Positions 9,790 through 57,900 of a stretch of 64,000 bases of DNA are shown piece after piece. A program made the translations under genes and the position numbers. The stretch lies in contig NC_090281.1 in assembly GCF_037392515.1 (NCBI RefSeq), positions 55,840,753 to 55,904,752 of the forward strand, given 5' to 3'. The notes below the pieces were generated by a model, which saw nothing but the letters and a program-made list of their open reading frames with translations, did no database searches and was not told where the DNA came from. This DNA comes from Haliotis asinina. Taxonomy: Eukaryota > Mollusca > Gastropoda > Lepetellida > Haliotidae. The number at the start of each line of letters is the position of its first letter. Within the stretch, counting starts at the first letter, position 1.

Positions 9790-9989
9790 CTAGGCTGAAG
9801 TTTCAAGTGCAGTAGGTTTGTCATACAAGGAATTAGTGAAGCCCATTCCAGAGTCATAGGTGTACTTGTTGCCTCCTCCTCGTTTCCTTATCACAAAGAA
9901 GGCAATGAGGGCGGCCACCAGAGCCAACACGATGATACTCAGCACTATTGCAGCAATTCCTCCAGAGTCTACAGCAGGTCCAGAAGATC
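9790..9989 (-). CDS. Exon 47: transmembrane helix and cytoplasmic tail, stop codon
   Basis: It encodes a short SSGPAVDSGG juxtamembrane segment, a hydrophobic helix of about 23 residues (from IAAIVLSI to AFFVI), the stop-transfer RKRGGG, and a tail of about 30 residues ending at TAG. The tail contains GFTNSLYDKP, matching the FxNxxY arrangement of the FENTLY endocytosis signal in the mannose-receptor family. This makes the protein a type I single-pass receptor. Acceptor TTATTTCAG, phase 1. Confidence 0.88.
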
Positions 9990-18900: not shown

Positions 18901-21900
18901 TACATCATTTACAACAATTATGCTGAAGACACAAGTATATTTCAAGAGGAGTGGAGTAGCTTGGCTTTAAAAGTGTTTGCTTTGATCTCCAATGATTGCA
19001 CAATATTTGATGCCTATTTCTGCTTCACCAATGTGCATAGGTTTGGATGTTTAACCACATGTAGATAATAATAACTAGATATTCCAGTCTAGTCACTGAT
19101 GTCATGTGACAATAAATGTATCCCATGTCCTATGATTGCTAACTGAAGTATTGTGACATCACCACATCCTATCTTGTGACAATACTTGTACCCTATGTCC
19201 TATCTTGTGACAGTACCTGTATCCCATGTCCTATCTTGTGACATCACCTATATCCCACATCCTATCTTGTGACATCACCTTTATCCCACATCCTATCTTG
19301 TGACATCACCTGTATCCCACATCCTATCTAATCTGACATCGCCTGTATCTCATATCCTATCTTGTGACAATACTTGTATCCTGTGTCCTATCTTGTGACA
19401 TCACCTGTATCTCATATCCTATCTTGTGACATCAAGTGTATCCCACATCCTATCTTGTGACATCACCTGTATCCCACATCCTATCTAATCTGACGTCGCC
19501 TGTATCTCATATCCTATCTTGTAACAATACTTGTACCCTATGTCCTATCGTGTGACAGTACCTGTATCCCATGTCCTATCTTGTGACAATACTTGTACCC
19601 TATGTCCTATCGTGTGACAGTACCTGTATCCCATGTCCTATCTTGTGACAATACTTGTACCCTATGTCCTATCGTGTGACAGTACCTGTATCCCATGTCC
19701 TATCTTGTGACATCACATGTAGCCCATGTCCTATCTTGTGATATCACCTGTATCCCACATCCTATCTTGTGACAATACTTGTACCCTATGTCCTATCTTG
19801 TGACAGTACCTGTATCCCATGTCCTATCGTGTGATATCACCTGTATCTCATGTCCTATCTTGTGACAGTACCTGTATCCCATGTCCCAGTCCAGCTCACT
19901 GAAGCCAATCCACACATGGACGTCACTCAAATTGGAGATCTATATGACATTCAAACTAAGAAGTTAATTTTGGACAGTCACATCTTAAGATATATGAAAT
20001 AAACAGAAATACATGTATTAAACAAATATACCAGGTGGGAAGAAAATTTGATTTCTCTCATTGTTTTAGGTAAAGTGTTATAAACTGAGTCAAAAGGCTG
20101 ACTTAGGGGTACTTTTCTTTAAACTCAATGTGAAGAGGTTTTCTAACTGCACATATTTCATAATGAGTTTTAGGACAAATTCCAACATTTCATCTTGGAA
20201 TAAATCCTGCTGTCTGTTTTTGTCATTTTGATTTCAAAAGTTGTTCATTCACTAGGTTTAGCCAAATAGTATGTTTGACTGTGATAAGTTCAGAACTTAC
20301 AAGTAACAGTAGAGAAATAGACAAGTGTTAATCATTAACATGCTTAATAACTACTGACAAACAATATGACTGAGTGATAGAGTGAGGGTTTCCACCACTT
20401 TCAGGAACACTCCAGCAGTATCATGGTGGGGACATCAGAAATGCTTCACATGTTGTACCCATGTGGGAATTAAACCCAGGTCTTTGGTGTAATGAGAGAA
20501 CACTTTAACCACATTATTGTAAACATATAAGATGTATTCTCACCAAATTTTGAATGAACAGCTGTTCATTGATGTTCCCAATAGATGCCAGATCAGCATT
20601 AGACTGAGCACACATGGACCTTGCTTCTCGCCACGTCTTCCCATAATCCCCTCCACCGTCCTGAGCCATGTAGCAGTAGCCATTGTATAACAACCAGTTG
20701 GGGAGATGTGGACAAGCACCCCCTACAACAGGCAGTAGCCATTACATAACAACCAGTTGGGGAGATGTGGACAAGCACCCCCTACAACAGGCAGTAGCCA
20801 TTATATAACAACCAGTTGGGGAGATGTGGACAAGCATCCCCTACAACAGGCAGTAGCCATTATATAACAACCAGTTGGGGAGATGTGGACAAGGATCCCC
20901 TACAACAGGCAGTAGCCATTATATAACAACCAGTTGGGGAGATGTGGACAAGCACCCCCTACAACAGTGCAGTAGCCATTATATAACAACCAGTTGGGGA
21001 GATGTGGACAAGCACCCCCTACAACAGTGCAGTAGCCATTATATAACAACCAGTTGGGGAGATGTGGACAAACACCCCCTACAACAGTGCAGTAGCCATT
21101 GTATAACAACCAGTTGGGGAGATGTGGACAAGCATCCCCTACAACAGGCAGTAGCCATTGTATAACAACCAGTTGGGGAGATGTGGACAAGCACCCCCTA
21201 CAACAGGCAGTAGCCATTCTATAACAACCAGTTGGGGAGATGTGGACAAGCACCCCCCTACAACAGGCAGTAGCCATTGTATAACAACCAGTTGGGGAGA
21301 TGTGGACAAGCACCCCCTACAACAGGCAGTAGCCATTACATAACAACCAGTTGGGGAGATGTGGACAAGCACCCCCTACAACAGGCAGTAGCCATTATAT
21401 AACAACCAGTTGGGGAGATGTGGACAAGCATCCCCTACAACAGGCAGTAGCCATTATATAACAACCAGTTGGGGAGATGTGGACAAGGATCCCCTACAAC
21501 AGGCAGTAGCCATTATATAAGAACCAGTTGGGGAGATGTGGACAAGCACCCCCTACAACAGTGCAGTAGCCATTATATAACAACCAGTTAGGGAGATGTG
21601 GACAAGCACCCCCTACAACAGTGCAGTAGCCATTATATAACAACCAGTTGGGGAGATGTGGACAAGCACCCCCTACAACAGTGCAGTAGCCATTGTATAA
21701 CAACCAGTTGGGGAGATGTGGACAAGCATCCCCTACAACAGGCAGTAGCCATTGTATAACAACCAGTTGGGGAGATGTGGACAAGCACCCCCTACAACAG
21801 GCAGTAGCCATTCTATAACAACCAGTTGGGGAGATGTGGACAAGCACCCCCCTACAACAGGCAGTAGCCATTGTATAACAACCAGTTGGGGAGATGTGGA

Positions 21901-24900
21901 CAAGCACCCCCTACAACAGGCAGTAGCCATTCTATAACAACCAGTTGGGGAGATGTGGACAAGCACCCCCTACAACAGGCAGTAGCCATTATATAACAAC
22001 CAGTTGGGGAGATGTGGACAAGCATCCCCTACAACAGGCAGTAGCCATTCTATAACAACCAGTTGGGGAGATGTGGACAAGCACCTCCTACAACAGTGCA
22101 GTAGTCACTGTATAACAACCAGTTGGGGAGATGTGGACAAGCATCCCCTACAACAGGCAGTAGCCATTCTATAACAACCAGTTGGGGAGATGTGGACAAG
22201 CACCCCCTACAACAGGCAGTAGCCATTCTATAACAACCAGTTGGGGAGATGTGGACAAGCATCCCCTACAACAGACAGTAGCCATTATATAACAACCAGT
22301 TGGGGAGATGTGGACAAGCACCCCCTACAACAGGCAGTAGTCACTGTATAATAACCAGTTGGGGAGATGTGGACAAGCACCCCCTACAACAGTGCAGTTG
22401 CTACCTTGTGCTCAAAGCATGACGATCACTGGATATACAAGGACTGGTCTGATCATACATACATTGCTATAAAAATGCAACAAGGCCAAAAGCAAAGAAT
22501 GCACAATGATGGTGACATATTAACTTGTAGTTATAACAAACTAAAAGGACATCAGTGTTAAGCGTGTTACAACCACTGTAGCACTTCAGCTAAAACATTC
22601 AGCATCAGCAGCAATGACAAAAACATTGGGTTTGTTCACAGTACCTTCATAATAATTATAGTTATCTGTATATCTGTATGACACTTGCAGACATTTTGTG
22701 AACAGCATCAAAACTGTATTAACTTGAAGGACAAACAAGGTGAACTTTCATGTAATAATCAAATGACGACTAATATTGACTATTAAAAGTCATTGACCAA
22801 TCAGGCAGATAGACAGGTTTAAGTCATCCTGCAACATCACAATATTAAAGTTGGCACTCAGATGTCATTGTGGAGTCTGGAGAGAGAACCCTTATTTTAT
22901 TGGTGTTTCAAAGATAAGTAATCTAGAATGTCAGCTGTTACCTGAAGTGGGAACTGGCAAGGTGGTTCTCGGTGCTGGTGTCACACCTGTAAATAGAACA
23001 ACAGTCAAAATGCACAACTTTGATATCAGTCTCAAGGTGATTTATTATTTCCATAAATGAATCATTAACGTTTCACATATTAAGGCAAACAAACGAAATA
23101 CGGCAACCATCCACAAAGCTGTCATACCACTTCAACCATCCTAAGCCTGTGTTACAATATGAGAGTTACAATCACATTAGCTCAATGAATTCCTAATGGA
23201 ACAGAGTATAATTGGATGAACATGCCTCAAAGTTCAGCTTCAGCAGCCATGTTTGTTTAAGTTTTGGAGGATTTTAATTGAACAAACTCAACATGTCCTC
23301 ACAACAAACATCTATTCATCAGTTGATTATTCCAGCTGCAGCCAGGACATTGGAAACAGATGTATTATCTCACCTTTCCTGATGCCACAGATCCAGTTCC
23401 TGAGATGCCAGCAGACTTGAACGTTGAACTTGCCTGTCTGTAGGATCACCTCAACACACTGGGCATTCCCTCCTTGTGTGTCTGGCTCGTTGTCGGCCCA
23501 TGGTGTCAAGTCAAAGGGGGTCTTGTCACTCCACACATAGCCTAACACAGAAATACATCCAGAAGTCCATCCTTGATATCTCCAGGGTATAGATTCCGAT
23601 AACTCTCCACTATATGTTGGATGCATCTATGGCTAAGCCAGATAATTTTATTACCACCCTTTGCTGGCTCCACAATCTCACATTAGCCAATTGGCTAAGC
23701 TGCAGTTACAACTGAGCTTGCCAGTGCCAACAAAGACAGCAGTTGTAACTGCGAAAGTTTGTACGCACAGCAAATCAGATTTTTGGGAAATCATGCAGAC
23801 AAATTGACAGGTCTGAAACTTAAAAAATCATGTGCACAAACTCTTTCTACCTCTTTCAGAGTACCTCTGCACCATTTGCACTGCCAAGTTCAATCAGTTA
23901 GGTAATTTAAAAGGGAAATTGAGCTGCAACTGGTTTGCTCAACTTCCGTGTGTAGACACCTGATTGGGTACAAGACCAGCCAAGGGAGGTCCTGAATTCA
24001 TCAGGCAAGGCCATAGATGCATCCAGGGTATTGTGAAGACTTACTGGAATGTTGATCTGGAGATATCGAGGATGCCACATACACATACACATACAAGTCT
24101 GATTATTAAAATCAAACATATCTCAAACAAGCCTGTACAACTGCCCATGTGACAGTACCTACATTCTTAGCTATGCTGAAAAAAAAAACACTAAAAAATT
24201 ATGAAATGTGAAATCAATACAAACAAAAAGGCAAAAGGCTTTAAATGTGCAAAAATGGTATTCACAGCTAAAGGATAAACCTAAGTCTTGAAAAGATCAT
24301 CATGCTAATTATCAACTTAATTTCTAATAAAACTTGTCCCATGATTTCACACAGTCTGTACCAAGTTGAATAACATGGAGCAAGGACCATGATTAACATG
24401 TTTATGACACCACTTTTTCAGCTCATTTTAAGATAATGACCAATAACATCAATGTGTAAAATCTGTTTTCAACAAATTGTTTTTAGAGAATTGTCTGTCC
24501 ACACTAAGAAACAAACAGACAGGTGGGAAGATTGAAGGACAGACAGACTACATTCTTATATCTTGGGGTTTTGTTTGTACCAGACTTCAAAATCTGCTTT
24601 AACTTGGGAAGCAACTTACAAACAACTAACTATAACCAACTAACTTGGGAAGCAACTTACAAACAACTAACTATAACCAACTAACTTGGGAAGCAACTTA
24701 TAAACAACTAATTATAACCAACTAACTTGGGAAGCAACTTACAAACAACTAATTATAACCAACTAACTTGGGAAGCAACTTACAAACAACTAATTATAAC
24801 CAACAACTAAGTTCAATTACAGATGTAAATTTAACCTCAAACTAGACTAATGCATAGTTTCTGAATATATATAATTTTGGCTGAAACAAACAAACCCATT

Positions 24901-27900
24901 TAAATAAAAAAGGAGCCACAGGGAGACCATAGATTCAGAACCTGAGGAAATCTCGACTTGCTGCAGATAGTGCTGTAGACTGTACACTGCAGAGAAGGCA
25001 AGACAGTAGGAAAAATAATGTGGTTCAAGGACTGTGAGATAAACTACCCTCAAGCCTGCAGACCTGTAAACCATCCTCACTCTCATAAAGAGTAAAACTT
25101 TTATCTGACATCATAATTTTAGGTTCTGTCCAAATAAGGTTGGAAATCAGGTTTGCAATTCACCGAGTTTCATGGGCAGTAACGTTTAAAGAATGAAGCT
25201 GAGAGACTGGACACTTACCAAACTGCCTTAACATACTCTGTCTAGAAGGAGAAGGTTCAGCCTGCTGACTAAACTGAGAGATTGGACAATTACCTACTGC
25301 CCCAACCTACCCTGTCTAGAAGGAGAAGGTTCAGCCTGCTGACTAAACTGAGAGATTGGACAATTACCTACTGCCCCAACCTACCCTGTCTAGAAGGAGA
25401 AGGTTCAGCCTGCTGACTAAACTGAGAGATTGGACAATTACCTACTGTCTCAACCTACCCTGTCTAGAAGGAGAAGGTTCAGCCTGCTGACTAAACTGAG
25501 AGATTGGACAATTACCTACTGTCTCAACCTACCCTGTCTAGAAGGAGAAGGTTCAGCCTGCTGACTGAACTGAGAGACTGAACCATCAAATATTAACACA
25601 GCCTTTTCCCCACCTGTACCTGAGTGGACAATGTTATGTCTTCTACCCTGAGAATGACTTACCTTCATTGGCTCCCCCCGCGTTCATCACACTCAGACCA
25701 ATCCAGAAGTGATCAGTCTCACCACTGAAACATGATCATAGGACATCAGATTCTTTGCAATGTCTATTTCATAAAATTACTGGCATGTCATTTGAGAGAG
25801 TCTCTCTGTCTTATCACCTCCTAAACCTCAGACTGAATGCTGCATGTGCGTGTTGATTCCAAAATGAAAATGTTATTCATATTTCCTTACACTTAAATCA
25901 TATACTGCCTATAGTCATAATGCATATAACTGTGTTACACAGAACACCACCAAATACCAATAATGAAAATAAGAACATTATAGAGTTTACAGGTTTAACA
26001 ATATTTCGCTCATTTAATTATATACAGGTCAGCTGTGTTATATGATGTCAACTGATAAAGACAGGTAGATACTCACATCAGATAGTTCCTCCAGATGTAG
26101 TCCAGGGTGGAGGCGTTATGGAAGCTAGCGAGGTGGGCGTTCTGTCGTTTGCAGTCCTGCTGGGAGTCTGCCCACGACAGCTGGAGGTTGATAGGGTTGT
26201 TGTTTATCTGACAAAACAGAGAGTGAGAGAGTGAATCAGTCTTTTAGTGGATGAGTGTTTGATGTATGGCCACTGAAAGTAGCACCTACTTGTCCTTTTA
26301 CATTTGCATATGTGTCTGAAATGACCAACAGGCACCATTTTTCTGTTGTGTCTTCTGAGCATCCATCCATTGATCATCCCTCTATCCATGCCTTACAACC
26401 ATCCATCCATAAATCCATCCATCCATCATCCATCCATCCATCCATCAACAAGCTCATGTGGCCATATCCACAGGTAATCTGTTTTTGGAATGCTTGTATG
26501 CTTTCAGTAGTTGTTGCCAGCTTTAAGGCGTGCACTGATGTTGCTATAAAAAATTGTCAACAAATCTTGATTCCCGTGTTCAGCTGTGAACATACACAGT
26601 TTCGGTTGCCTGTGTGCTCTCAGTACCATGGTGGGCAACAACAAGCAACATTTTTTTAACCCAGTGGTGTGACCATTGGCTCAAACAAGCAGTATGCTAA
26701 TCTTCAGGCAGATGCTCAGAACACTAAAAAAAACAGGTAAAGTGAAAAACGCAGCACACAAATATAGAACAGCAACTTATAAAGGTTCAGGAAATAAATG
26801 TATTGTAAAACATTTGTGTCAAAGAGAAGGTGAAGGACGCAGCAGGTTGATGCAGATCTTCATGTAGTGACTGTTGTGAATAACCTACTAAGAGTAAGCA
26901 ATGCAGTCTGTCACTCACTTGATAGCAGTAGATTCCTCCATCCACCCATCCAGCAGCGCAGGGTACCTTGGGCGGAGTAGTGGGAAGGGTAGCCGGGGTT
27001 GTGTACCCCACTCTTATACGCTCACATATGGCGGCGAGGGTGGAGTTGCAGAATGTGTTGTACCACAGACCAGCATTCACTCCACTGCCCAAAGCAACAC
27101 AATGACCATTCTCATCTGGACAAAACAAATACACCAGATAACAAGTGGGTTACAAAATACAGATCTTATAGTCCCTATTGCCTTTTATGGGTACCAGACC
27201 GTCACACTGCTTTCTGTACATTGGGTACGAGAACACTATATTACTTCCTGTGAGTACTAGTACATCATATTGCTTCCTTTGAGTACAAGTACATCATATT
27301 GCTTCCTATGAGGACTAGTACATCATATTGCTTCCTATGAGTACTAGTACATCATATTGCTTCCAATGAGTACTAGTACATCATATTGCTTCCTATGAGT
27401 ACAAGTACATCATATTGCTTCCTATGAGTACAAGTACATCGCATTGCTTCCTATGAGTACAAGTACATTGAGTACAAGTACATTGTATTGCTTCCTATGA
27501 GTACAAGTACATCGTATTGCTTCCTATGAGTACAAGTACATTGTATTGCTTTTTATGAGTACTAGTACATCATATTGCTTCCGTGTACAAGTACATCGTA
27601 TTGCTTCCTATGAGTACAAGTACATTGTATTGCTTCCTATGAGTATAAGTACATCGCATTGCTTCCTATGAGTACAAGTACATCATATTGCTTCCTATGA
27701 GTACAAGTACATCATATTGCTTCCTATGAGTACAAGTACATCGCATTGCTTCCTATGAGTACAAGTACATTGTATTGCTTCCTATGTGCACAAGTACATC
27801 ATATTGCTTCCTATGAGGACTAGTACATCATATTGCTTCCTATGAGTACTAGTACATCATATTGCTTCCTATGAGTACAAGTACATCATATTGCTTCCTA

Positions 27901-30900
27901 TGAGTACAAGTACATCGCATTGCTTCCTATGAGTACAAGTACATCGTATTGCTTCCTATGAGTACTAGTACATTGTATTGCTTCCTATGAGTACAAGTAC
28001 ATTGTATTGCTTCCTATGAGTACTAGTACATCATATTGCTTCCAACATGTACAAGTACATCGTATTGCTTCCTATGAGTACAAGTACATCGTATTGCTTC
28101 CTATGAGTACAAGTACATCACAATGCTTCCTATGAGTACAAGTACATCACATTGCTTCCTATGAGTACTAGTACATCGTATTGCTTCCTATGAGTACTAG
28201 TACATTGTATTGCTTCCTATGAGTACAAGTACATCGTATTGCTTCCTATGAGTACTAGTACATTGTATTGCTTCCTATGAGTACAAGTACATTGTATTGC
28301 TTCCTATGAGTACTAGTACATCATATTGCTTCCAACATGTACAAGTACATCGTATTGCTTCCTATGAGTACAAGTACATCGTATTGCTTCCTATGAGTAC
28401 AAGTACATCACAATGCTTCCTATGAGGACTAGTACATCGCATTGCTTCCTATGAGTACTAGTACATCGTATTGCTTCCCATGAGTACTAGTACATCATAT
28501 TGCTTCCTATGAGTACAAGTACATCGTATTGCTTTTTATGAGTACTAGTACATCATATTGCTTCCAACATGTACAAGTACATCGCATTGCTTCCTATGAG
28601 TACAAGTACATTGTATTGCTTCCTATGAGTACAAGTACATCATATTGCTTCCTATGAGTACAAGTACATCGCATTGCTTCCTATGAGTACAAGTACATCG
28701 TATTGCTTCCTATGAGTACTAGTACATCATATTGCTTCCAACATGTACAAGTACATCGCATTGCTTCCTATGAGTACCAGTACATTGTATTGCTTCCTAT
28801 GAGTACAAGAACATCGTATTGCTTTTTATGAGTACTAGTACATCATATTGCTTCCTATGAGTACAAGTACATCGTATTGCTTCCTATGAGTACAAGTACA
28901 TCATATTGCTTCCTATGAGTACAAGTACATCGTATTGCTTCCTATGAGTACAAGAACATCGTATTGCTTTTTATGAGTACTAGTACATCATATTGCTTCC
29001 TATGAGTACTAGTACATCATATTGCTTCCTATGAGTACAAGTACATCGTATTGCTTCCTATGAGTACAAGTACATCATATTGCTTCCTATGAGTACAAGT
29101 ACATCGTATTGCTTCCTATGAGTACAAGAACATCGTATTGCTTTTTATGAGTACTAGTACATCATATTGCTTCCTATGAGTACAAGTACATCGTATTGCT
29201 TCCTATGAGTACAAGAAATTGCTTACGTATTGAATACGTGTTTACACCTAGTTGCGGGTACAGCAACGGGCAGTTAACTTGGACAAAGTACTGTGACTAT
29301 GGGTCCCAGTCCACCCAGCAGTGAATTGGGTAAGTCGTTAGGATGAGAGAGCCACAAAAAATTCGGTGCGCCTAGTGGCAGCAAGAGTTGTATACTCCCT
29401 AGCTGAGATTGATGATACGATGTGACGCTGAGACGGACATACAATAATCGAGGGAAACAAATACCAGCGCCTTGAGCAAGCAACAGTTGCATGGATATGT
29501 GAGCTATATAAATATCCAATAACAATAATACACTACCGAGGACCTACACTGTACCAACTTTTGAACTACTGACCAACTACTGAGGATTGCTTAGGTAAGG
29601 GCACCTAGGACCAGCTGTGGAACTACTGACTAACTACTGACTAACTACTGACTAACTACTGAGGACCTGCTCAGGACAAATTGTGAAGTTGCTTAAGTAT
29701 TACTAAGGAAGTACTGAGGATTAAGTGAGAAGCTACTGAAGAACTACCAATGAACCAGTGAGAACCTACTGTGGACCTACTGACGACCACATTAGGAGTT
29801 ACCTCACCTGGTTTGTTCTGCGCCCAGTTGGTTATAGACACATGCGTTACCCCATCACTGTACTTGTACTCTCCTGTCTTCCCACTGTTGCGAATGTCCG
29901 TCCACACCATGTACTTCCTCAGTCCCAGAGAACTGGCCACGTATGCTTGCTCATACCTTTAAATAAAGTGTAACACACATTCTTCAATACATGTGACAGA
30001 GACAGAACTTGTTTTTGAGACACTACCCACCCCCACTTTCAGATGGTGTAATCAAAAGGACATAACTTATTCTAATGTTTTCACTTATTCAAGCATGAAG
30101 CGAAGGGTTCAAACAAAATACTGAATGGTCACACAAGATTAGCTCTCATTAAACAGTGCCAAGTTGAATGTCTGGACAAAATGTTTTAGAAAGATTAAAA
30201 TGGGGGTGTCCTTTAAACACGCAATCCAACTCTTTGAATGGTGATTATGACGTGAAGTCATCCACACTATACTGAACATATTTTATATCACATTTTCTGA
30301 GTGCATGCCATCATCCAAGAGGTACCAAATGTCAGACTGTTTTTCACTTTCTGCTATGTTTAAAAAAATATTACACCCCAGTTGTTGTGATGACAAAGAT
30401 CTTGTTAACCACATAAACCACATATGTGAAATTCTGGATATGTCTTTTCTAATGATTCCTTCAAAATCAAATGGAAAACATTGGACATCAATAATACAGT
30501 GAGGCCGACCACTTTCGGGACATCCCTTGTATAATCTGATGTCAAATACCTCTACAATGGCATAGACTCTGATGCTTACAAGGAGTTGGAAATATTTTTT
30601 GACAAGTCTCATTAGATAAGGACAAACTTTATGGATGTACAACTTCTTTATTCAGGTGAAGCGGTGTTTCAGTACAGATACTTGTCAAGCAAGTATGAAA
30701 CTGTGTATCAAAACGTTGCTTCATCTGAATAAAGAAGTTTGTACATCCATAAAGTCTGGGCTGATCTGATTCTCCAGCTTCTAAACATGCCACTCAAATA
30801 AGATAAGTTTCATCATGACCTTGAGGTTTTATACATCATACAAAATCAACTTTTAATTTTGATACAAGTATAACTAATACATGTCATTAGTGTAATTAAA

Positions 30901-33900
30901 GGTGACCCATGGAAGGGTCCTTGCATGGGTGACTGTGTTTGGCAGCTTTATTCCTAGCTGCAAGTTTATAGGACATCAATCCTTCCCCACAACAAAGCAC
31001 ATTTAGCCTCTGACAAGTGAGTTTGTTAAAAAATGCCTCTGTTCACCCAGCAGAAGGTGGGTACCTGGTGGGACAAGTCATGTGACTAATAACCTTCTAG
31101 CACATCACAGACAGCTTGGGTTATCCAGGGTAATAATGTGTTAGCTCCTTGAGCATGCATGAGTGTGTGAAAAGGGCGTGGTATAAATGATCATTATCAT
31201 TACTATCATTATATTGTTCCATCTTCCCAGGGATATCTCCCATATAAGTGCATTTTGGATGGATGATAAACACCATTGCAGACCTTTCATGAACGTGGAC
31301 ATAGATCAAAATTAATAACTATTGTGATTCTCCTTGTCTTCTTTTAAAACCAATTAATTTCATTCCTCTGTCCAGTAATGATATTGATAAACATTGAGAC
31401 TGTGATAGGTCACCTGTCATCAATCCGCACCAAGGATGCTCCAAAAGCTTCACAAGCACGTGCTGCAGCCTCCCATGTTCTTGTCTCCCTCACATACATG
31501 TAGCAGGACCACCGATATCCATCCCAGCCCTGAACATGGATGTCATATCACAGATTGAGCAGAGAGGCTATGTCTCTACATTCTGTCATTGGTTGCTGCT
31601 TAGTAAACATTGGGTCAAGGCAGAGTTGAGCAATATCTCAGTTATATCATGGTACTAACTTCAGCTGGTATAAAGAACCCCTGGAGTCTATAATAAAGCA
31701 TACTGGTGAAATACATAAACTTGGAAATATTACTGACAAGCCAAGAAATATAACCAGGCCAATCTGGGAGGTGATGAAATGTTTCTGCCCACCCTAAATG
31801 ATACAGTTATGTACAGCAAATAACAGTTACTTACGCTAAATAAAAAATGTGAAATGTTTCTCAGACATCAGTGAATCACTGTCATTTGAGAATGTAACAT
31901 TTTCTTATTGCCATTTAAATAAAATAATTCTGACATGGCCACGTCCCGATTGTACATTTGTCCACTATATAAATGAGTGTCTGCAAGAACGAGAGTGATT
32001 GAATCTTCAACTCATTAAGACATGCTAAAGTACCAAAGCTGTATTTCAGAGAGAAAAAAAGAAAAATGTGTTCCTCCCTCATCAATTGTCCACTTTGGAA
32101 AAAATGTGCCCTCGCCACTTTGGAAAAAATGTGCCCCAGACATTTAATTTTTTCCTGCTGCCTTAGATGATGTATCAATGACAAGCTGAGGGTGGTGACA
32201 CTGGCAATGGTGAAATGAGGAGGAGGAGGATGTTGGTGGTTGTCTCACTGTTGATTGTGGTGACAAAGGTGGTTGTCACACTGTTGCTGTGGTTAGGAGG
32301 ATGGTGGTGATGCTGTTGCTGTAATTGGGAGGATGGTGGTCATGCCATTACTGTGACAAGGACCACAGTTGTCACGCTGTTGTTGTTATGCTGTTGCTGT
32401 ACTTAGGAAGATGGTGGTGACACTATTGCTGTGGTTGGATCCGTGGTTGTCACACTGTTGCTGTGGTTAGGAGGATGGTGGTGATGCTGTTGCTGTAATT
32501 GGGAGGATGGTGGTCATGCTATTACTGTGGCAAGGACCACAGTTGTCATGCTGTTGTTGTTATGCTGTTGCTGTACTTAGGAAGATGGTGGTGACACTGT
32601 TGCTGCGTTAGGATGCTTGTTGTCATGCTGTTGCTGTGGTTTAAAGGATGGTGGTGACACTATTGCTGTGGCTGGATCCATGGTTGTCACACTGTTGCTG
32701 TGGTTGGAAGGATGGTGGTAATGCTGTTACTGTGGTTGGGAGGATGGTGGTGACACTATTGCTGTGGTTGGATCCATGGTTGTCACGCTGTTGCTGTGGT
32801 TAAAAGGATAGTGGTAGTGCTGTTACTGTGGTTGGGAGGATGGTGGTGACACTATTGCTGTGGTTGGATCCATGGTTGTCACGCTGTTGCTGTGGTTAAA
32901 AGGATAGTGGTAGTGCTGTTACTGTGGTTGGGAGGATGGTGGTGACACTATTGCTGTGGTTGGATCCATGGTTGTCACACTGTTGCTGTGGTTTAAAGGA
33001 TAGTGGTAGTGCTGTTACTGTGGTTGGGAGGATGGTGGTGACACTATTGCTGTGGTTGGATCCATGGTTGTCACACTGTTGCTGTGGTTTAAAGGATAGT
33101 GGTAGTGCTGTTACTGTGGTTGGGAGGATGGTGGTGACACTATTGCTGTGGCTGGTTCCATGGTTGTGACACTGTTGCTGTGGTTGGAAGGATGGTGGTA
33201 ATGCTGTTACTGTGGTTGGGAGGATGGTGGTGACACTATTGCTGTGGTTGGATCCATGGTTGTCATGCTGTTGCTGTGGTTTAAAGGATGGTGGTAATGC
33301 TGTTACTGTGGTTAGGAGGATGGTGGTGACACTATTGCTGTGGTTGGATCCATGGTTGTCACGCTGTTGCTGTGGTTTAAAGGATGGTGGTAATGCTGTT
33401 ACTGTGGTTAGGAGGATGGTGGTGACACTATTGCTGTGGTTGGATCCATGGTTGTCACGCTGTTGCTGTGGTTAGAAGGATGGTGGTAATGCTGTTACTG
33501 TGGTTAGGAGGATGGTGGTGACACTATTGCTGTGGTTGGATCCATGGTTGTCACACTGTTGCTGTGGTTTAAAGGATGGTGGTAATGCTGTTACTTTGGT
33601 TGGGAGGATGGTGGTGACACTATTGCTGTGGCTGGTTCCATGGTTGTCACACTGTTGCTGTGGTTTAAAGGATGGTGGTAATGCTGTTACTGTGGTTAGG
33701 AGGATGGTGGTGACACTATTGCTGTGGCTGGTTCCATGGTTGTCACACTGTTGCTGTGGTTTAAAGGATGGTGGTTATGCTGTTACTGTGGTTAGGAGGA
33801 TGGTGGTGACACTATTGCTGTGGCTGGTTCCATGGTTGTCACACTGTTGCTGTGGTTTAAAGGATGGTGGTAATGCTGTTACTTTGGTTGGGAGGATGGT

Positions 33901-45900: not shown

Positions 45901-48900
45901 CACAGACATGTGGATAGTCTCACACAAACATGTGGATAGTCTTACACAGGCATCTGGATAGTCTCAGACAGACATGTGGATGTGGATAGTCTCACACAGA
46001 CATGTGAATAGTCTCACAGGCAAATGTGGATTATTTTACAGACATATGGATAGTCTCATACAAACATATGGATAGTTTCACACAGACAAGTGGATAGTCT
46101 CACACAAACATGTGGATAGTCTCACACAGACATCAGACATATGGATAGTTTCACAGACATACGGATAGTCTCACACAGACATATGGATAGTCTCACACAG
46201 GCATCAGACATATGAATAGTCTCACACAGATTTTTGGATAGTCTCACATTTTACACAGACATGTGGATAGTCTTACACCGACATGTGGATAGTCTCACAG
46301 AAACACACTGATTGTTTGTTTCACACAAACTAATGGAAAATTCCTGAAAGTAAGTAACTTTAAGTAGATATCTTGAAGTAGGTAGTGTCAAGGCAGTACC
46401 TTGAAGGAAGTACCCTAAACCAAGTACCTTATCCATTATTAATAACCTTCAAACAAGTATGTTATCAACCATTAATTACTTTCAAGCACGTGCCTTATCA
46501 ATCCATAAGTACCTTCAAGCAAGTATGTTATCGATTTTTCAGTGCCTTCAAGCCAAACATTTTCAAGTAAGTACCTTATCGACACCTGGCGGATCCTGAT
46601 AAGTGTACCATGGGCTGAAGTAGTCATACTGGTACATTAACTTGAACTTAGTGACCCATTCTCCAGTTTCGCTGCTTCCCGCTATCTGGATCCCACGGGT
46701 GATGATGATGTTGTAGAAGGTGGCAGAGATCCACTGACCTTGAGCTGTCATAGCTGAAGACCATCCACCTGGAATGAGGACAGGGTAGATAACATTCTAA
46801 CAGCATTCTAAAACTGATAGAGGCAAACAACTTTCTACATTATAATGGACATAGATCAGAGAAATCACTTTAGTTTTGATCAAGAAGATTAGAATTGATA
46901 GGATGTTACTTAACATCTTGTTTCTTTGTTGTATATCACCATCCATTGCTGTATACCACCACCTACTGCAGTATTCCAGCTGCTTGATATTGACCAGCTT
47001 AAGTCTGTGATTGATGCTGTGAGCAATGCCCCATGTCATCGGGATACAATGGCAAGTCATCAACCAAGCGTACCATAGTACCCTATCTACTAAACTTGCA
47101 AACGATCTATGAGAACTGGGTTCAGAATTATTGCCGTCAAATGTTCTTGTTGAGGAGTATACGAGGGTGAATTCTGAAAGCTGCCTGTCTACAGACTACT
47201 CCTAGTACCTTTGTTTCCGGGGGTGAGTCTTGACGCATCGGGTCCATGACCAGGGTCGCGAGCTGACGTAACCTGTAGCGCCCCCTGTCCTGGCGGGAGA
47301 CTGTAGTTCCCTGATATCATAGGCTCAGCCTTGCATAGATCTGGAAACAGAGATGGAACCTCCTTGCTTTCACAGGTAAAAGATTATGGGTGAACCCACT
47401 AGAATGCTGTAACTCACGTTGTATTTAGTTAGCAGATACTGTCATCATATTCAAATATTTTCTGCATAACACTGAGGACAAATGTCAAAACAAATAATAA
47501 ACACATAGTAAATATTCACATTGTTTCGAAATTTGCAACAATGAATGTAACATTCTATAATATACTCTTAAAAAAAAGTAGGGGAACTTCATTTTTATAT
47601 TTACAATTAAAAATATTTAGGAGATTTATCGTAAGTCAATCAGTGTTGATATGATATTATTGAATGTTTTGAAAGTGCATCACAACCATAGCTATTTGGA
47701 ATGCACTTGCTTTTGAAAGATGATTGATTTTTAGCATGTAATTTGCATGTAGACCATTTTCATTGTAAAACAAATGACTTAAAACAAACCCTAACAAATG
47801 TGTGATGCAAGATGAGTGTCAAAATTAATGTTCTAAGTGATTTCTCAACTTCTTGAAAAACACCAAAATCAAATATGTGCAAGTGTATGGGGCTACTGCG
47901 TTGTGCATGTGCATATCATGCACTGTGTTTTAGGGGTGCTAATAAAGGGAAATGGTGGTGCGTTTATAACATGTCTGTCCTTTAAACGTTTGTTAACGTT
48001 AACACTTCCTTTCAAAATTGAGAGTTCAAGTTCCCCTACTTTTTTTGAAGAGTATACTATTGCAAAACATAGTATTTTAAACAATGACTCATATTGAAGA
48101 ATTCTCATCCATTTGAAACCATTTTGGGGAAGCAACATAAATATTAAAAACACATCTCTACAAGGGGGTTGGATGACCACATGGCCCTGAGACAAGGTGA
48201 GCTATATGATATGGAAACCCCACCACAGCAACAGGAATGAAGTAGGATCACTATTTCAAACTGCCACACAAAAAGCTTTAAAAATAAGTGCTTCTGAAAA
48301 TATAGTTTCTTTAAATGCAATGCTGACAGCAATAAAGCAGTAGTCTGGCTGACATTGGAAGAATGGTACATGTTGGAAGAGATCAAGAACGTCACCTTTT
48401 CCCACTGGTGTTGTCTGAGTTATTGATGGAGCTATGGTTGTCTCTGGCGATGCTGCAACAGAAGATACATCTGATCAGGGAACGTGTACTCAAGTAAAGC
48501 AGACATGTTCGGGATTGAAAGATTAGTCTGGAAGAGAGAAATTGTAGGACTTGTATCCCTTGTGTGTCATAAACAGGACACAAAGACCAATATTTATTAA
48601 TTTTCTCCCAAACAAGTATATACAACATCAGTTTCAGTATCAGCAATGTACAACGGGCAAAATGGCAGTGAAAATGATGACTAAATCACTGAAAACCTGT
48701 GATGAATAAGCATACCCTACTCTAAGTCAGCGAGTGATTTTAGTTTTACACTGCACTCAGTAATATTCAAGCTATATGGCTGCAGTTTGTATATAATCAA
48801 GTCTGGGCCAGACAATCCAGTGATCAACAGCATGAGCAGTTGAGAACCAATGACTTGAGTCAACCATGTCAGTGAGTCTAACCATCCAATCCCATTAGTC

Positions 48901-51900
48901 ACCTTTTATGACAAGAATGGATTACTGAAGGTCAGTTTCAAACCAGATCTTTACTGGTCCCCAATCCTAAAGGATGAAAGCAAATATTTAAAGAGTCTAC
49001 ATTAATTACATAATAAAGAAAGGTCAATGTAATTGCCTCACCTGATTTTTCACAAATGTAGTTGTTGAGAGCTGAGCATTTCTTGTCATTCCATTTGTAG
49101 CTCCAGTTCGGGACCATCTGAGAGCAGTCCTCCTCACCCCCCAATGAGTTGGGTTCACCTGTAGATGATTCAGGAGATCATCAATCAACAACAGCAATAA
49201 CAACATAGGTTACATTTGGCATTGTGTATATTTACTGTGCATATTCATTATGTATCTTCATTGTGTTTATTCACTGTGTATTCATTGTGTATTTGTTGCG
49301 CATTTGTTATGTATTCGTTACGTATTTCTTGTGTATTCATTGTGTATTTGTTGCGCATTCATTGTATATTTGTTGTGCATTCATTGTTTATTCACTGTGT
49401 ATTCATTGTGTATATGTTGTGTATTCATTGTGTATATATTGTGTATTCATTGCATATTCATTGTGTATTTGTTGTGTATTCATTGTGTATTTGTTGTGTA
49501 TTCATTGTGTATTCATTGCGTATTTGTTGTGTATATACTGTGTATTCATTTTGTATTCAGCAGCAAAAACAACATATACAACAAACAAGTAAGGGAACAC
49601 CCTAAATTTTTTACATCGATACGTAAACTTAGACAAGGGAAAGTCATTTACACTCAAAGATAAATGCAACTTTTTGTGTGCTTAAATGGTCAGCGAATCA
49701 ACTGATTCAGTGTGTGTTGAGTTTGAGTGAAGTAAAACATTGTCAAAAACAGTGAACAACAAGGGTGCTGAGACACACCATCACCATGTGTGTTTGACTT
49801 AAATGCCCAAACACAACAGCCCAGTGCATAAAGAACACAAAGCAGTTACCTTAATTCATTAAATCAATCATTTACAGAATTTATGAAAGTATAGTCTTTT
49901 AAATTATTTTGAACAAACTATAATTTTTTCCAAATCTACCTGTCAAGGGTAGTTAGTTTGGAATCCTAAATAAAAGCCAGAGATTTCTGCCTCAACAAGC
50001 AGCATGTCATCCCAGTACACCTCGGTCCTACCTGGATGCCAGTTGACATATCGGAATGGTGCCTTGTTGCTCCACTCCCATCCTCCTTCCTGGTTCTTGT
50101 CATTGGCACCAATCCAGAACCACTCTTGGACAGCAGCATACTCACCAGCAGACAAGACAGCTGCAAAAACATGCAGTAAAATGACAACCTGATTTACACT
50201 AGAATTCCCATGGAAATCTAAACTGAGGTTTGACAACCTGATCTACTCCGGAATTCTCACAGGGAGCCTGCACTGAGGTTGGACAACCTGATCTACTCCG
50301 GAATTCCCATAGGGAGCCTGCACTGAGGTCAGACAACCTGATCTACTCCAGAATTCCCACAGGGAGCCTGCACTGAGGTCGGACAACCTGATCTACTCCG
50401 GAATTCCCATAGGGAGCCTGCACTGAGGGCGGACAGCCTGATCTACTCCGGAATTCCCACAGGGAGCCTGCACTGAGGTCGGACAACCTGATCTACTTCG
50501 GAATTCCCATAGGGAGCCTGCACTGAGGTCGGACAACCTGATCTACTCCAGAATTCCCATGGGGAGCCTGCACTGAGGTGGGACAGCCTGATCTACTCCA
50601 GAATTCCCATAGGGAGCCTGCATTGAGGTGGGACAACCTGATCTACTCCGGAATGCCCACAGGGAGTCTGCACTGAGGTCGGACAACCTGATCTACTCCA
50701 GAATTCCCACAGGCAGCCTGCACTGAGGTCGGACAACCTGATCTACTCCAGAATTCCCACAGGGAGCCTGCACTGAGGTCAGACAACCTGATCTACTCCA
50801 GAATTCCCATAGGGAGCCTGCACTGAGGTCGGACAACCTGATCTAATCCGGAATTCCCATAGGGAGCCTGCACTGAGGTCGGACAACCTGTTCTACTCTG
50901 GAATTCCCAAAGACATCTAACTTTGGGTCTTACTAGTACTTGTACTGATGTCTGCAAAGCTGATCTACCAAACAACACTGTGGACATTTTGCACACAAGA
51001 ATATTCATGATCTGCAGATGTATTTACCTTGCAGAAAGGTTTGTTCTTTTGGCCCATCTATGCTGACCAGGTCGGAACCCCGCCTGAGGCAGTCAGCCCT
51101 GGCATCAACCCAGTTCTTGGTAGCACCAACTATGACTTGGTAGCAGGAACTCTCCATGCCGTTGAAGATCCAGTTGGGTCCACATCGGTAAGACCAGGGT
51201 GCTGAAACAGATCTGACACACTGCTGAAACATGTACATATACAGTCAGTGGAAAGGGTGAAGGTCATTTAACACCCCAGGACCCCATTTCACAAAGCTCT
51301 GGTAAGCTTAAGATCTCATAGCTTTTCCTGTAGCATTCGTTCGTCCAATATTGTAACATAGAGGTACGAACGCTAAAAGAAAAATTACGAGGGCTTTGTG
51401 AAATAGGGCCCAGGTGGCTTAAGTTCACAGTAATCACTAGTCCAGATGTATCTTAGCAATGGTGCACAATGCATGAACAACCAAGATCCATGTAAGCTTA
51501 GTAACATATTCATGTAAAAATATTACCCACTTGATTCTGACTCGCTTGCATACAATCATGCTAATATGTTCACAAGTCAAATATTAACCAGCTGTATGCT
51601 ATTGACACCAGAAGTGTTTTGGATTTGGAACTACAGTGGAACATATCAACTGACATTTGCCAGCAGGGGACAATAGTTATCTCCCTTACCTGTGACAGCT
51701 GCACCTGGAGTGGCTGTGGCACCAACTGAAAGAGAACAATCAGCACATCATGAAATACCACAACATCGGATCATGAAAATTAACAAGGTATTCATATACA
51801 CATACGATTCACATGGTAATTAAAGCCTGGAAGCCTTTAAGTAGTGCTTGATGATGACTTCTAACATGGTGACTCACTTGCAGGGCTCCGACAGATGAAG

Positions 51901-54900
51901 TTGTGTTGCTGTTTGCACCAGTTGTCTCGCCAACTGCCAGGGTATGGAGACCTGACAAACTGGGCATCAACACACTCCTGTCCAACTTGGTCATGAGAGT
52001 TGGGCTCCCCAGGGGCGAAGTTGTTGAAAGTTAGCTGGAAGTAAACCTCAGTTATTAGTGAAAACATTTGTGCCTGTTAATGTTCAAAGACATGCTCAAT
52101 GCTTAGCAATGATTGGGTTGGTTTGTGGTTCATTTCCCTAAATGTGTGCAATGTTGGAAGCCATGACTAGTGTTTCCCACTGTGAATATTGCTTTAGGTA
52201 CTGCCAAAGAGTGGCACGAAACAAAACTCCTCCACTATTAGGGTTTGGAGTTTACCAGAGATGAGGTTGTATTCTCCACCCAGGTAAAACCATCTTACCG
52301 GTGTATTGTCCACCCAGGTAAAACCATCTTACTGGTGTATTGCCACACTAGTAAAACCATCTTACTGGTGTATGGCCACACAGGTACAACCATCTTACTG
52401 GTGTATGGCCACACAGGTAAAACCATCTTACTGGTGTATGACCATACAGGTAAAACCATATTACTGGTGTATTGCCACACAGGTAAAACCATCTTACTGG
52501 TATATTACCACACAGGTAAAACCATCTTACTGATGTATTGCCACACAGGTAAAACCATCTTACTGGTGTATTGCCACACAGGTAAAACCATCTTACTGGT
52601 GTATGACCATACAGGTAAAACCATCTTACTGGTGTATTGCCACACAGGTAAAACCATCTTACTGGTATATTACCACACAGGTAAAACCATCTTACTGGTG
52701 TATGACCATACAGGTAAAACCATCTTACTGGTGTATTGCCACACAGGTAAAACCATCTTACTGGTATATTACCACACAGGTAAAACCATCTTACTGATGT
52801 ATTGCCACACAGGTAAAACCATCTTACTGGTGTATGGCCACACAGGTAAAACCATCTTACTGGTGTATTGCCACACAGGTACAACCATCTTACTGGTATA
52901 TTGCCACACAGGTAAAACCATCTAACTGGTGTATGGCCACACAGGTAAAACAATCTTACTGGTGTATGGCCACACAGGTAAAACCATCTTACTGGTGTAC
53001 TGCCACACAGGTAAAACCATTTTGCAGGTGCATTGTCCACCCAGGTAAAACCATCTTACTGGTGTATTGTCCACCCAGATAAAACCAACTTACTGGTGTA
53101 TTGTCCACCCAGACAAAATCATGGTTCGTTGTTTGTCGATCTCGTTTCAGTCCTATCCATGCATTTCCCTGCTGAAGCATTTTTTCTACAACATACATCC
53201 AGAGGTAGATTTTACAACAGCTCTTAAAAGGCAAGCCGTATTTAACAAAGGGAATCATGTACTGATCATATGGCTATCTGATTTCTAAAACTGAGGAAGA
53301 CCCTTCTCCAAAAATCAAAAACCTTACTACCATTATAATATACTATTAATAAATGTTATCAAATTCAAAAAAATTCACAAAAGCAGTCACGTTTAAAGTT
53401 GTTTTTTCTGACCAACTCCTTGTTTGATGGCTTAAAAGTAGTGTTTTTCTGATGACAGTGACTGCCATGAAAAATGACACACTGTAACTTCTCACTTTGT
53501 CACTGAACGAGGTTGTGGTGTATTTTATTCTCAAGAAACTTGCTTCTACTGTCTACAAACTAAGAAGTTGTAGGAATAAGTTAGACTGATGAGTTTGGCA
53601 GGTGGTTAGAGCATTCACTCATATGAAGAACAAAATTTGACTCCCCACATGGGTACAATGTGTGAAACCTATTTCTGGTGTTCCCCGCCATGATATTGCT
53701 GAATATTGCTAAAAGAGGTGAAACACTAATCCCGCTCACACTCTAACATTTAATAACTTGGTTGGTGTATTTTATATCAAATAACAAAACGCCAATATTA
53801 TCCCTTTGTCCTACCGATGAGGAACGACTGCTCCAAGGGGTCCCGAATAGTGGTAAGGGAACCACCACTAACACTACAGAAATTCTGCGCCATCGTCCAG
53901 TTGAGGTGGGACCCAAGGAAGTAGCAGTCTTGTCGGAACAGAACCCACTGACTTGGGCACGTCATATTGTTGGCTGAAACACATAGAACACAACATGTCA
54001 GCTCAGTTAGGTGTTCATATCCAGCATAGAAAACACTGTCTTCAACATGAGTCCCATGTTACGAATTGATCTGGAGCTAAATATAAGCAAACTGCACCTC
54101 TAAAACTGTGACATAGGGAGACAAATGTAGATATACGTGTATATGCTTGAAAACGGTATAAGAAGCTATACCAAAAAGTCGCTGTTGTGAATATATAAAG
54201 AAGTTGATAATCAAAAAAGTTTTGTCATCTCAAGTAAATAAACCAATCCTTTGAAGCCATTATGAAGGAAAGGATGTGTGAAATCATTAAAAACACAGAT
54301 GTAGATACATATGTGATTACAAACTGTCCATTTTGTTGTATTTGGTGTTAATTTGAAATAAAACACAAACAAACACAAATACTTACTTCACCCCCTTTTT
54401 TGCAAAAGGACACTGGCCTCACCATTTCTTCCAAATTTGAAGTACTAAATAAATGCTCCTTCCTTTTAATCAGGAGTTAAATCATATCAGCCTTAAGAAT
54501 GGTTAGTAAAAAATGTCAACAATGCCAGAAAAATGTGTTGGTAAGACTACAGAATACTGGATACCCTCTGCCATCTTTGAAAGCAAGCAAGTTTACTTTT
54601 GGTTAGGGTAAGGGTAAGGTTTACAGTCAAGAGTTTTTGTTAGGGTGACATGACACTCAACAATATGTCTGGTAGGTATCCAGTGTTCTGAAGGTGTACT
54701 AATGTGTTTTAAAACTTGTTCATTTGGACAGTGTAAATAATCTTTAATTATTATTCATTGCAACCATTGCTAATTATCAGGCATGTGCTTTGCGTGAAAT
54801 TCATGAGGCTGCTTAAAACTGAACTTTAAATAGATAAAGTATACATACCCGGTTCCGTATGATTGACATACTTCTGTGCAATGGGCATTTCACACATGTA

Positions 54901-57900
54901 GGGCTTGATTGCATAGCAGTAGCCGTTGGACCAGGTTGCCTGCCCATCTGGAAGTACCCGGTATATTTCTGGTGATCATGGCAATGGCAACTCTTTCCCA
55001 AAACAAATAAAGTCACACACTAGTCATCTCTAACGGCGACATCAATTGTGTTATAGTGATGCAGATGAGTAAGCATGTGTTGTCTTACATAGGAATGTGA
55101 CAAAGGGAGAAATACTTGCCCAGCAGTACCTGGGTACCAGGTAAGATAAGGCCAGGGATCAACTTTGGCACTAAGATGATCATAAATCCCAAACTTGAAC
55201 CTAAACCCCGTCACCTGAGCTAAGTCTACATATATTTTAGTTAATTTAAACCTATTTTAGCAATACATTATAATTAGAACATGCACTGTTGTTATGTTAC
55301 TGAAGACTGCTAATATAGTTACGATTTGTGACAACTCCGCAGTCAGTTCGTCCCGGGATGGGGCGTGGGAACCCCCTGTACCAGTGGGTGTAGGAGGTGG
55401 AGATGTTGAGGGAGAGGCCATCCTCCCATGTGTAGTTTCCATCTTGTAGTCGATCTGGAGAATAAAATGCCTGCTAAATATTTCCTCACTCAAATCTATA
55501 CACAAAGAGAAACCTGAAAAGTTCATTTGAGCAGTAACTTATTACTCAAATGGTGCTCAATCAAACTGGGTTTTATTCCTACTTCAGTGGACTTATAATC
55601 TAGGCTGCAATTACATGGTACTGGAACAACGCTGCTTTATACTGGGAATGTCTGTCACTGATGAGTGATTCACAAGCAATAAATTGGCTTATTTAGTCTC
55701 TGTTTACCCATGTACCATGTACCAGGTTTCCGTGCCTTCCATTCTTGTGTATAATCCCCACAAATACACCTGCATCTGTAATTCTGTAAAACTTTCATTC
55801 TTGTGTATAATCCCCACAAATACACCTGCATCTGTAATCCTTTAAAACTTCCATTTTTGTGTATAATCCCCACAAATACACCTGCATCTGTAATCCTGTA
55901 AAACTTCCATTCTTGTGTATAATCCCCACAAATACACCTGCATCTGTAATCCTGTAAAACTTCCATTCTTGTGTATAATCCCCACAAATACACCTGCATC
56001 TGTAATTCTGTAAAACTTCCATTTTTGTGTATAATCCCCACAAATACACCTGCATCTGTAATCCTGTAAAACTTCCATTCTTGTGTATAATCCCCACAAA
56101 TACACCTGCATCTGTAATCCTTTAAAACTTCCATTCTTGTGTATAATCCCCACAAATACACCTGCATCTGTAATTCTGTAAAACTTCCATTCTTGTGTAT
56201 AATCCCCACAAATACACCTGCATCTGTAATTCTGTAAAACTTCCATTCTTGTGTATAATCCCCACAAATACACATGCATCTGTAATCCTGTAAAACTTCC
56301 ATTTTTGTAGTATGGTTAAAGACTTTAAAGCATATTCATTGCATAAGATATATTCCAAAACAATTAGTCAATATTGCGCACAACATTCAGAAGACCAATC
56401 AAGGGCCATAATTCTGAGAAACATAAACTTATGATAGTTCCTCAGCATATTTTGCTAATAAATAAAAAGATCAGTGATGTATCCATACCAGGTAATGAAA
56501 TAATGTGTCTCTGTTCAGTTAGGAGAGGGTGAAGGACAGAATCCGCATCTATATCCCTTGAGTTGAGAGTGAGTGAGTGAGTGAGTGAGTGAGTGAGTGA
56601 GTGAGTGAGTGAGTGAGTGAGAGTAAGATGTTTACTCACATCATTTCATGTCCACTTATGGTGGGATAACAAACGCCTTTACTTCAAGGACAGTAAAGAT
56701 GCCAATCAATGAAGAACTATAAAAAATATAATAAAAGCAAAGCCAAGACTTTAAATTCCATAAGGAGAAAAGCAACTGTTACCTGAGAATCCCATCCAGG
56801 CATCGTGAATATGTAGAGCACCAAGAGCTTTCCCCATCAACAGACTTGTTTCTTGGCTGTGGAAAATAGGGTTAATTATTCAGTTTTCTGTTACAAATAC
56901 AAATACATTACCAATATTTCAGCATACAACAATCATATCATATTCTAGGTCAGTAAATGGTAATGTCAATCAATCAACCAAATACAGAGACAGATCTTCT
57001 GTTTCAGGAAATAGATCACTTTCTGGCATTAAACTGTTGGATAAGGCTGCCATATAGTCTACCTACTCCTCAATAGTGAGCAGCTTCACACCCTGTTTCT
57101 TGCAGTTGTCGTTGGCCATGTACCAGGTGGTCACGCTGTCCTTTGTGTTGTGTACCTGATAGCACTTACCCCCATATACCACCCAGCCTGTCGGACATGT
57201 CCCTGGAACACACCAAACATGAACAAATACAGAGTAAATAAACTGACGAATGGGTGGAAAGATGGAAGAAAAAGATCAGTATATGAACCCTATGGCTTGA
57301 TCCAGACGGTCAGTACACATACCATATGGCTTGATGCAGATGGTCAGTAAACAGCAATATCATATGGTTTGATGTAGATGGTCAGTACACATACCATATG
57401 GCTTGATGCAAATGGTCAGTACACATATCATATGGCTTGATGTAGATGGTCAGTACACATACCATATGCCTTGATGCAGATGGTCAGTAATATCATATGG
57501 TTTGATGTAGATGGTCAGTACACACACCATATGGCTTGATGAAATGGTCAGTACACATATCATATTGCTTGATGTAGATGGTCAGTACACATACCATATG
57601 GTTTGATGCAGATGTATTTCCTCTCAGTAATGCAGTTCTTTTTGTTAAAGTAGAAGTTGCTGAGTGCCACAGACTCAATACACACTTGTCCAGGCTGTCT
57701 GAAAAAGACATGAATGTGAAATTGTGAGAACATATCAAGTGGAAGATGAAAACACATGACAACTGGAACGCTTCCACAAACAGCATATAAACACGTCATC
57801 ACTTGTACCAACCTACACAGGGGATCATGCACCATTGACATGTGAAGTCAAGATGTCATGCTGAGTATTCAAGGTATCATGCTGGATGTGCAAGGTGTCA

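Follow-up and report, generated by a model that had tools for sequence, protein, structure and literature searches.

Exon-edge minisatellites, probably of the mirage type, at seven junctions of one lectin receptor gene in Haliotis asinina

Minisatellite-like duplications that run across exon boundaries have been described in amphioxus as mirages. They are reported in Adh3, in the globins BflGb6 and BflGb9, in troponin C and, in an imperfect form, in PGBD5; their units of 10 to 160 bp cross both 5' and 3' exon boundaries, and splice signals are found in many, not all, copies (PMC3087553, PMC3902484). Splicing is reported there to be undisturbed, and array lengths vary between haplotypes and, in the case of Adh3, also somatically (PMC3087553, PMC3902484). 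Furthermore, the ends of the clusters are described as escaping homogenisation (PMC3087553). Here we present arrays of this kind in a lectin receptor gene of the mollusc Haliotis asinina, contained in a stretch of 64,000 nucleotides (RefSeq assembly GCF_037392515.1, contig NC_090281.1, positions 55,840,753 to 55,904,752), hereafter the window, in which position 1 is the first letter. The kind of repeat is already known; what is new is that so many occur in a single gene, and that the host is a mollusc. Altogether, we consider it probable that the arrays are mirage-type minisatellites which arose independently at seven junctions of this receptor gene, and that their additional splice sites are tolerated decoys.

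The receptor is encoded on the minus strand, which had not been named in a preliminary description of the window. Its product combines several C-type lectin and F5/8 type C domains with a single WSC domain, a stalk rich in Thr and, in the last exon, a transmembrane segment. In our exon model, 43 exons were placed, giving 42 introns and 84 scored junctions. The exon numbering is that of the preliminary description; exons 2 and 14-16 are unplaced and their junctions are outside all counts. Reading phases, which were also used in picking some of the splice sites of the model, were consistent at all 40 joins of consecutively numbered exons as judged by eye.

For every junction, sites in the neighbouring intron, to a depth of at most 2000 bases, were scored against the junction itself, with similarity required on both sides, and the other introns of the gene were used as control. 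The scoring was run ungapped first and then gapped, and was inspected for the best 30 of the 84 junctions in the first test and for the best 12 of the 84 in the gapped one. At seven of the 84 junctions, copies in the own intron scored clearly above the best match in other introns. In the first test the own score against the best score elsewhere was 110 against 8 for the acceptor of exon 36, 81.5 against 9 for donor 24, 65.5 against 9 for donor 3, 62.5 against 9 for donor 9, 52.5 against 9 for donor 37, 26.5 against 9.5 for the acceptor of exon 47 and, as the weakest of the seven, 13.5 against 9 for donor 17. Gapped alignment left the same first six far ahead and brought donor 17 (17 against 13) level with donor 45 (17 against 15). 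The comparison of array consensus sequences with junctions pointed in the same direction, since scores of at least 16 were reached in 7 of 42 adjacent pairs and in 1 of 1722 non-adjacent pairs. Thus, the tandem copies of exon edge plus splice signal that had been claimed for the donors of exons 3, 9, 17, 24 and 37 and for the acceptor of exon 36 were recovered at all six places, including the degenerate state of the exon 17 array; the seventh array, which adjoins the acceptor of exon 47, the last one, was absent from the earlier list. All seven are described in Table 1.

Table 1. Modelled receptor gene and junction arrays (positions in the window).
Feature	Position	Strand	Content
Host gene as modelled	9790..63688	minus	about eleven C-type lectin, three F5/8 type C and one WSC domain, a stalk rich in Thr and a transmembrane exon
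34-bp array, donor of exon 3 (57595-57698, the exon ending at base 57595)	57287..57614	minus	9 copies besides the functional site, GT in 5
33/34-bp array, donor of exon 9 (exon 53094-53185)	52268..53112	minus	24 copies, GT in 23
Degenerate 33-bp array, donor of exon 17 (exon 46575-46768)	46421..46553	minus	6 copies, GT in 3
53-bp array, donor of exon 24 (WSC exon 39381-39511)	38966..39422	minus	8 copies, GT in 5
59/60-bp array, acceptor of exon 36 (exon 20544-20722)	20673..22398	minus	28 copies, AG in 28
31-bp array, donor of exon 37 (exon 19872-19939)	19167..19886	minus	22 copies, GT in 19
53-bp array, acceptor of last exon 47 (9989)	9997..10124	minus	2 copies with AG

Several further junctions were considered and left uncounted. 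Donor 45 was rejected as an eighth case, being borderline in the first test (12.5 against 11.5). The 59-bp array of its intron (11111-11526) scored 13 to donor 45 but reached as much as 17 with a junction elsewhere, not adjacent to it, and for this reason was not counted. This array has an 11-base string in common with the exon 45 donor edge, and a diverged copy of the same edge, below threshold, lies ahead of the array at 11577, about 600 bases into the intron. Three more junctions exceeded their control by a thin margin, each in one test: in the first, donor 10 with 10.5 against 9 and, with 10 against 8, acceptor 19; in the gapped one, acceptor 25 with 16 against 14. The large intronic minisatellites at 27238-29215 (29 bp), 32270-34209 (96 bp) and 44519-45577 (51 bp) have units unlike their adjacent junctions.

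Regarding the relations among the arrays, 21 pairwise comparisons of the seven units did not reveal any clear relationship (the lowest shuffle fraction was 0.02, uncorrected), and their origins therefore look independent, as had been proposed on the basis of differences in sequence and in unit length; the lengths given (31, 33, 34, 53 and 59/60 bp) proved correct. Within the arrays, the copies are individually different. In the case of exon 36, a higher-order repeat of 10 units (594 bp) is superimposed on the array, visible in the spacing of the copies and with an identity of 0.83 at a lag of 594 against 0.74 at a lag of 59; this is a sign of exchange at a larger scale.

The locus shares with the amphioxus mirages a unit that joins a piece of exon to neighbouring intron sequence, splice site included, here at 7 of 84 junctions. 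Both 5' and 3' boundaries are affected, in our case five donors and two acceptors, and many but not all copies keep the AG or GT, namely 85 of 99. Unlike in amphioxus, the host is a mollusc and not a cephalochordate, a single gene carries seven arrays, and an array may have as many as 28 copies. The sequence analysed here is that of one haplotype. Tandem duplication also yields extra AG/GT sites in a gene in the Rogers model of intron gain by tandem genomic duplication (PMC3443670). Here, unlike in that model, the intron is lengthened from one end, as junctions at the far end scored 0-11 against 17-66 at the near end; a new intron framed on either side by copies of one segment is therefore not what is seen here. 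In human genes of segmental duplications, variable internal tandem repeats at exon-intron boundaries have been described, and minisatellite expansion can introduce cryptic splice sites there; those repeats alter exons or create novel introns in recent paralogs, whereas the modelled exons of the receptor appear unchanged (PMC2812944). Among gastropods, an abalone TSSK1-like gene carries a 27-bp intronic minisatellite whose copy number differs among individuals. It is likewise intronic and in a gastropod gene, but is reported with no mention of an exon edge in the unit (PMC6905558). Short simple repeats in introns are noted for cone snail (PMC3862624), and minisatellites in first introns of earthworm metallothionein (PMC12783039). 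In the open-licence literature, mostly at the level of titles and abstracts, no mollusc exon-edge arrays were found described.

Exons were joined at the exon-proximal sites and compared with Pfam, in constructs that covered donors 3, 9, 17, 24 and 37 and acceptor 36. A single domain match above the curated cut-off ran across the join in four cases: Lectin_C with 62.0 bits at donor 9 and with 80.6 bits at donor 37, WSC with 57.2 bits at donor 24, and F5_F8_type_C with 51.3 bits at donor 17, covering profile positions 25-127 of 127. In the construct for donor 3, a Lectin_C match of 57.7 covers exons 4-7 and does not span the join; in the second construct the domain match begins past the acceptor of exon 36, again with the join not spanned. 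The reading phase fits at all seven exon-proximal junctions. From domain continuity and phase, the exon-proximal sites are presumably the ones used in RNA.

More insight on the origin of the arrays can be gained from the order of their copies. At exon 9, the form of the exon is retained by array copies 1, 2 and 24, and copies 3-23 belong to a variant that is one base shorter, as expected from an exon-edge founder followed by amplification of the interior. The exon edge is therefore the likely founder of this array. These end copies resemble the exclusion of cluster ends from homogenisation that is outlined for amphioxus (PMC3087553); in arrays 3, 24, 36 and 37, the others examined, such retention is less clear. 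We infer that exon edges were the founders at the other six junctions as well.

These observations can be brought together in a simple sequence of events. A short tandem duplication would by chance span an exon-intron junction and thereby copy both the edge of the exon and the splice site, donor or acceptor, that belongs to it, and the exon-proximal copy would leave the original exon and site adjoining. Because exon and site would stay intact at the exon-proximal end and still be used, such a duplication would be harmless, about as much as an intronic one, and could persist. Slippage or unequal exchange would then expand the array into the intron, with a separate event at each of the seven junctions. 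More speculatively, longer persistence beside an exon edge held by selection may in part give rise to the excess of junction arrays described below. In this scheme, the neutrality of the decoys and the mechanism of expansion are presumed.

The frequency of junction arrays was compared with a seed model, in which duplications of the unit length of each array were placed uniformly on the gene, either wholly intronic or spanning one junction. Rows of Tandem Repeats Finder (TRF) with a period below 20 and two arrays in coding exon 46 were excluded, overlapping rows were merged, and the exon 17 and exon 47 arrays, whose TRF limits end 21 and 7 bases short of the junction, were classed as junction arrays by similarity. 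Seven of the 21 intronic arrays (period of at least 20) were junction-seeded against 1.35 expected (P = 2e-4); this and the following P values are post hoc, from one gene in one window picked for showing the pattern. The six junctions first listed gave P = 0.0015 by themselves, and restricting the count to the five arrays of 21 that extend over the junction by their TRF limits gave P = 0.009. With arrays scoring at least 100, 7 of 19 were junction-seeded (P = 1.5e-4), and with those scoring at least 300, 5 of 16 (P = 0.003). When the chance of spanning was doubled, P rose to 0.012, and when it was tripled, to 0.088. Thus, an excess over uniform random seeding is present, and it may come from chance and the choice of the window, from arrays lasting longer next to an exon border that selection preserves, or from a true bias towards junctions.

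Chance is the first alternative to be weighed, although it concerns the excess only and is compatible with independently arisen, tolerated arrays. An exon-crowded gene in a minisatellite-rich genome, found in a window picked for the pattern, could yield such a number: the 21 arrays together make up 28% of the modelled intron length, the pattern was spotted post hoc and the expected number already exceeds one. As the observed number is five-fold over the uniform seed model, we regard chance as a possible but rather unlikely source of the whole excess.

A second alternative is a mutational process directed to junctions, e.g. template switching or break repair tied to transcription or splicing at exon borders, that would favour duplications spanning splice sites. 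It would account for the excess just described, including that of the first six junctions, and the same structure is reported from several amphioxus genes (PMC3087553, PMC3902484). However, the fraction of the unit that corresponds to exon varies from 0.24 to 0.85 without a fixed breakpoint relative to the splice site (Kolmogorov-Smirnov test against uniform, P = 0.65, with low power at n = 7), an argument against duplication guided by that site. In this test, the exon length was the matched length of the best copy, which amounts to 28 bases for exon 9, where the TRF limits give 19. The scatter suits ordinary tandem duplication that is harmless at the junction. Moreover, the excess is itself a post hoc result from one gene, it shrinks to five arrays by TRF limits, and it fades as the chance of spanning is doubled or tripled. 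Of the junction-linked duplication process suggested in the preliminary description, the excess over uniform seeding was therefore borne out and a preferred breakpoint was not, and we consider such a process unlikely. Its broader form, in which minisatellites of this lineage would arise preferentially at junctions and exon edges would be copied in connection with transcription or splicing, as in amphioxus, steadily lengthening introns from their ends, appears to us improbable to the same degree.

The fate of the copied splice sites has a bearing on the last alternative. Besides the retained GT or AG, 74 of the 99 copies reach a score no more than 2 bits below that of the functional site. The rank of the GT/AG column among the columns of the unit is mid-field (0.24-0.48) in four of five arrays and 0.70 in the array of acceptor 36, and the mean conservation of these columns is below that of the other columns in arrays 3 and 24. 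Column conservation accordingly does not show selection on the decoy sites, which may still act. That the rows of decoys are in use as alternative donors and acceptors which diversify the lectin and WSC domains seems very improbable, given that none of the 99 copies would yield an in-frame, stop-free exon and that the GT/AG columns are mostly mid-field, even with so many sites retained at near-functional scores. Tolerance of the decoys, which had been put forward together with their use, thus stands, and use for receptor diversity is unsupported. The extra sites look like tolerated decoys or by-products rather than a device for making variants.

Some observations weigh against independent, neutral origin by ordinary tandem duplication. 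Firstly, a purely uniform process, with 1.35 arrays predicted and seven observed, accounts badly for the number unless junctions are favoured by chance or by persistence. Secondly, persistence predicts that junction arrays are older, and this has little support: they are less uniform than the other arrays (84% against 89% match), and the contrast is non-significant (P = 0.23, or P = 0.08 against arrays scoring at least 100). Thirdly, the array of acceptor 36 keeps its AG in all 28 copies, and the GT/AG columns are better conserved on average in three of five arrays (9, 36 and 37). Fourthly, with no Pfam domain spanning the join at donor 3 and at acceptors 36 and 47, the assignment of the used site rests there on phase and splice signal. 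On balance, we still hold mirage-type minisatellites with tolerated decoy sites to be the probable explanation.

Regarding the gene itself, the domain totals of Table 1 were counted by hand from the exon model and are not the output of a tool. The 5' end of the gene was not found, and a search for exon 2 by motif gave nothing convincing. The last exon, 47, with the transmembrane segment and tail, was read manually as 9790-9989, the stop codon ending at 9790. Searching for homologous proteins with three joined exons as the query gave a single candidate with shared words and none with a score, in a database apparently without relatives. The donor of exon 21 at 42285 (minus strand) is apparently of the GC type (ATTCAG followed by gcgagt), and its phase fits exon 22. 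Exon 46, which encodes the Thr-rich stalk, contains at 10535-10652 coding minisatellites of 30 and 21 bp, multiples of three, with slightly more than two copies each. A dispersed repeat in the window resembles one known from Haliotis. Two stretches resembling transposases lie on the plus strand: a Tc1/mariner-like one at 61700-62500, in the large interval between exons 1 and 3 (DDE_3, 59.8 bits; HTH_Tnp_Tc3_2), and a second, Tc1-like one at 7900-8700, past the 3' end of the gene (DDE_3, 58.8 bits).

As to what the arrays mean, gene predictors should be applied with caution at such places, as decoy sites may be picked. With seven arrays in one gene, the question of rate, random or biased towards junctions, becomes countable genome-wide. 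If junction-spanning minisatellites were common outside cephalochordates, they would offer examples of introns that lengthen from their ends, and natural experiments on the choice that the spliceosome makes between dozens of near-identical sites.

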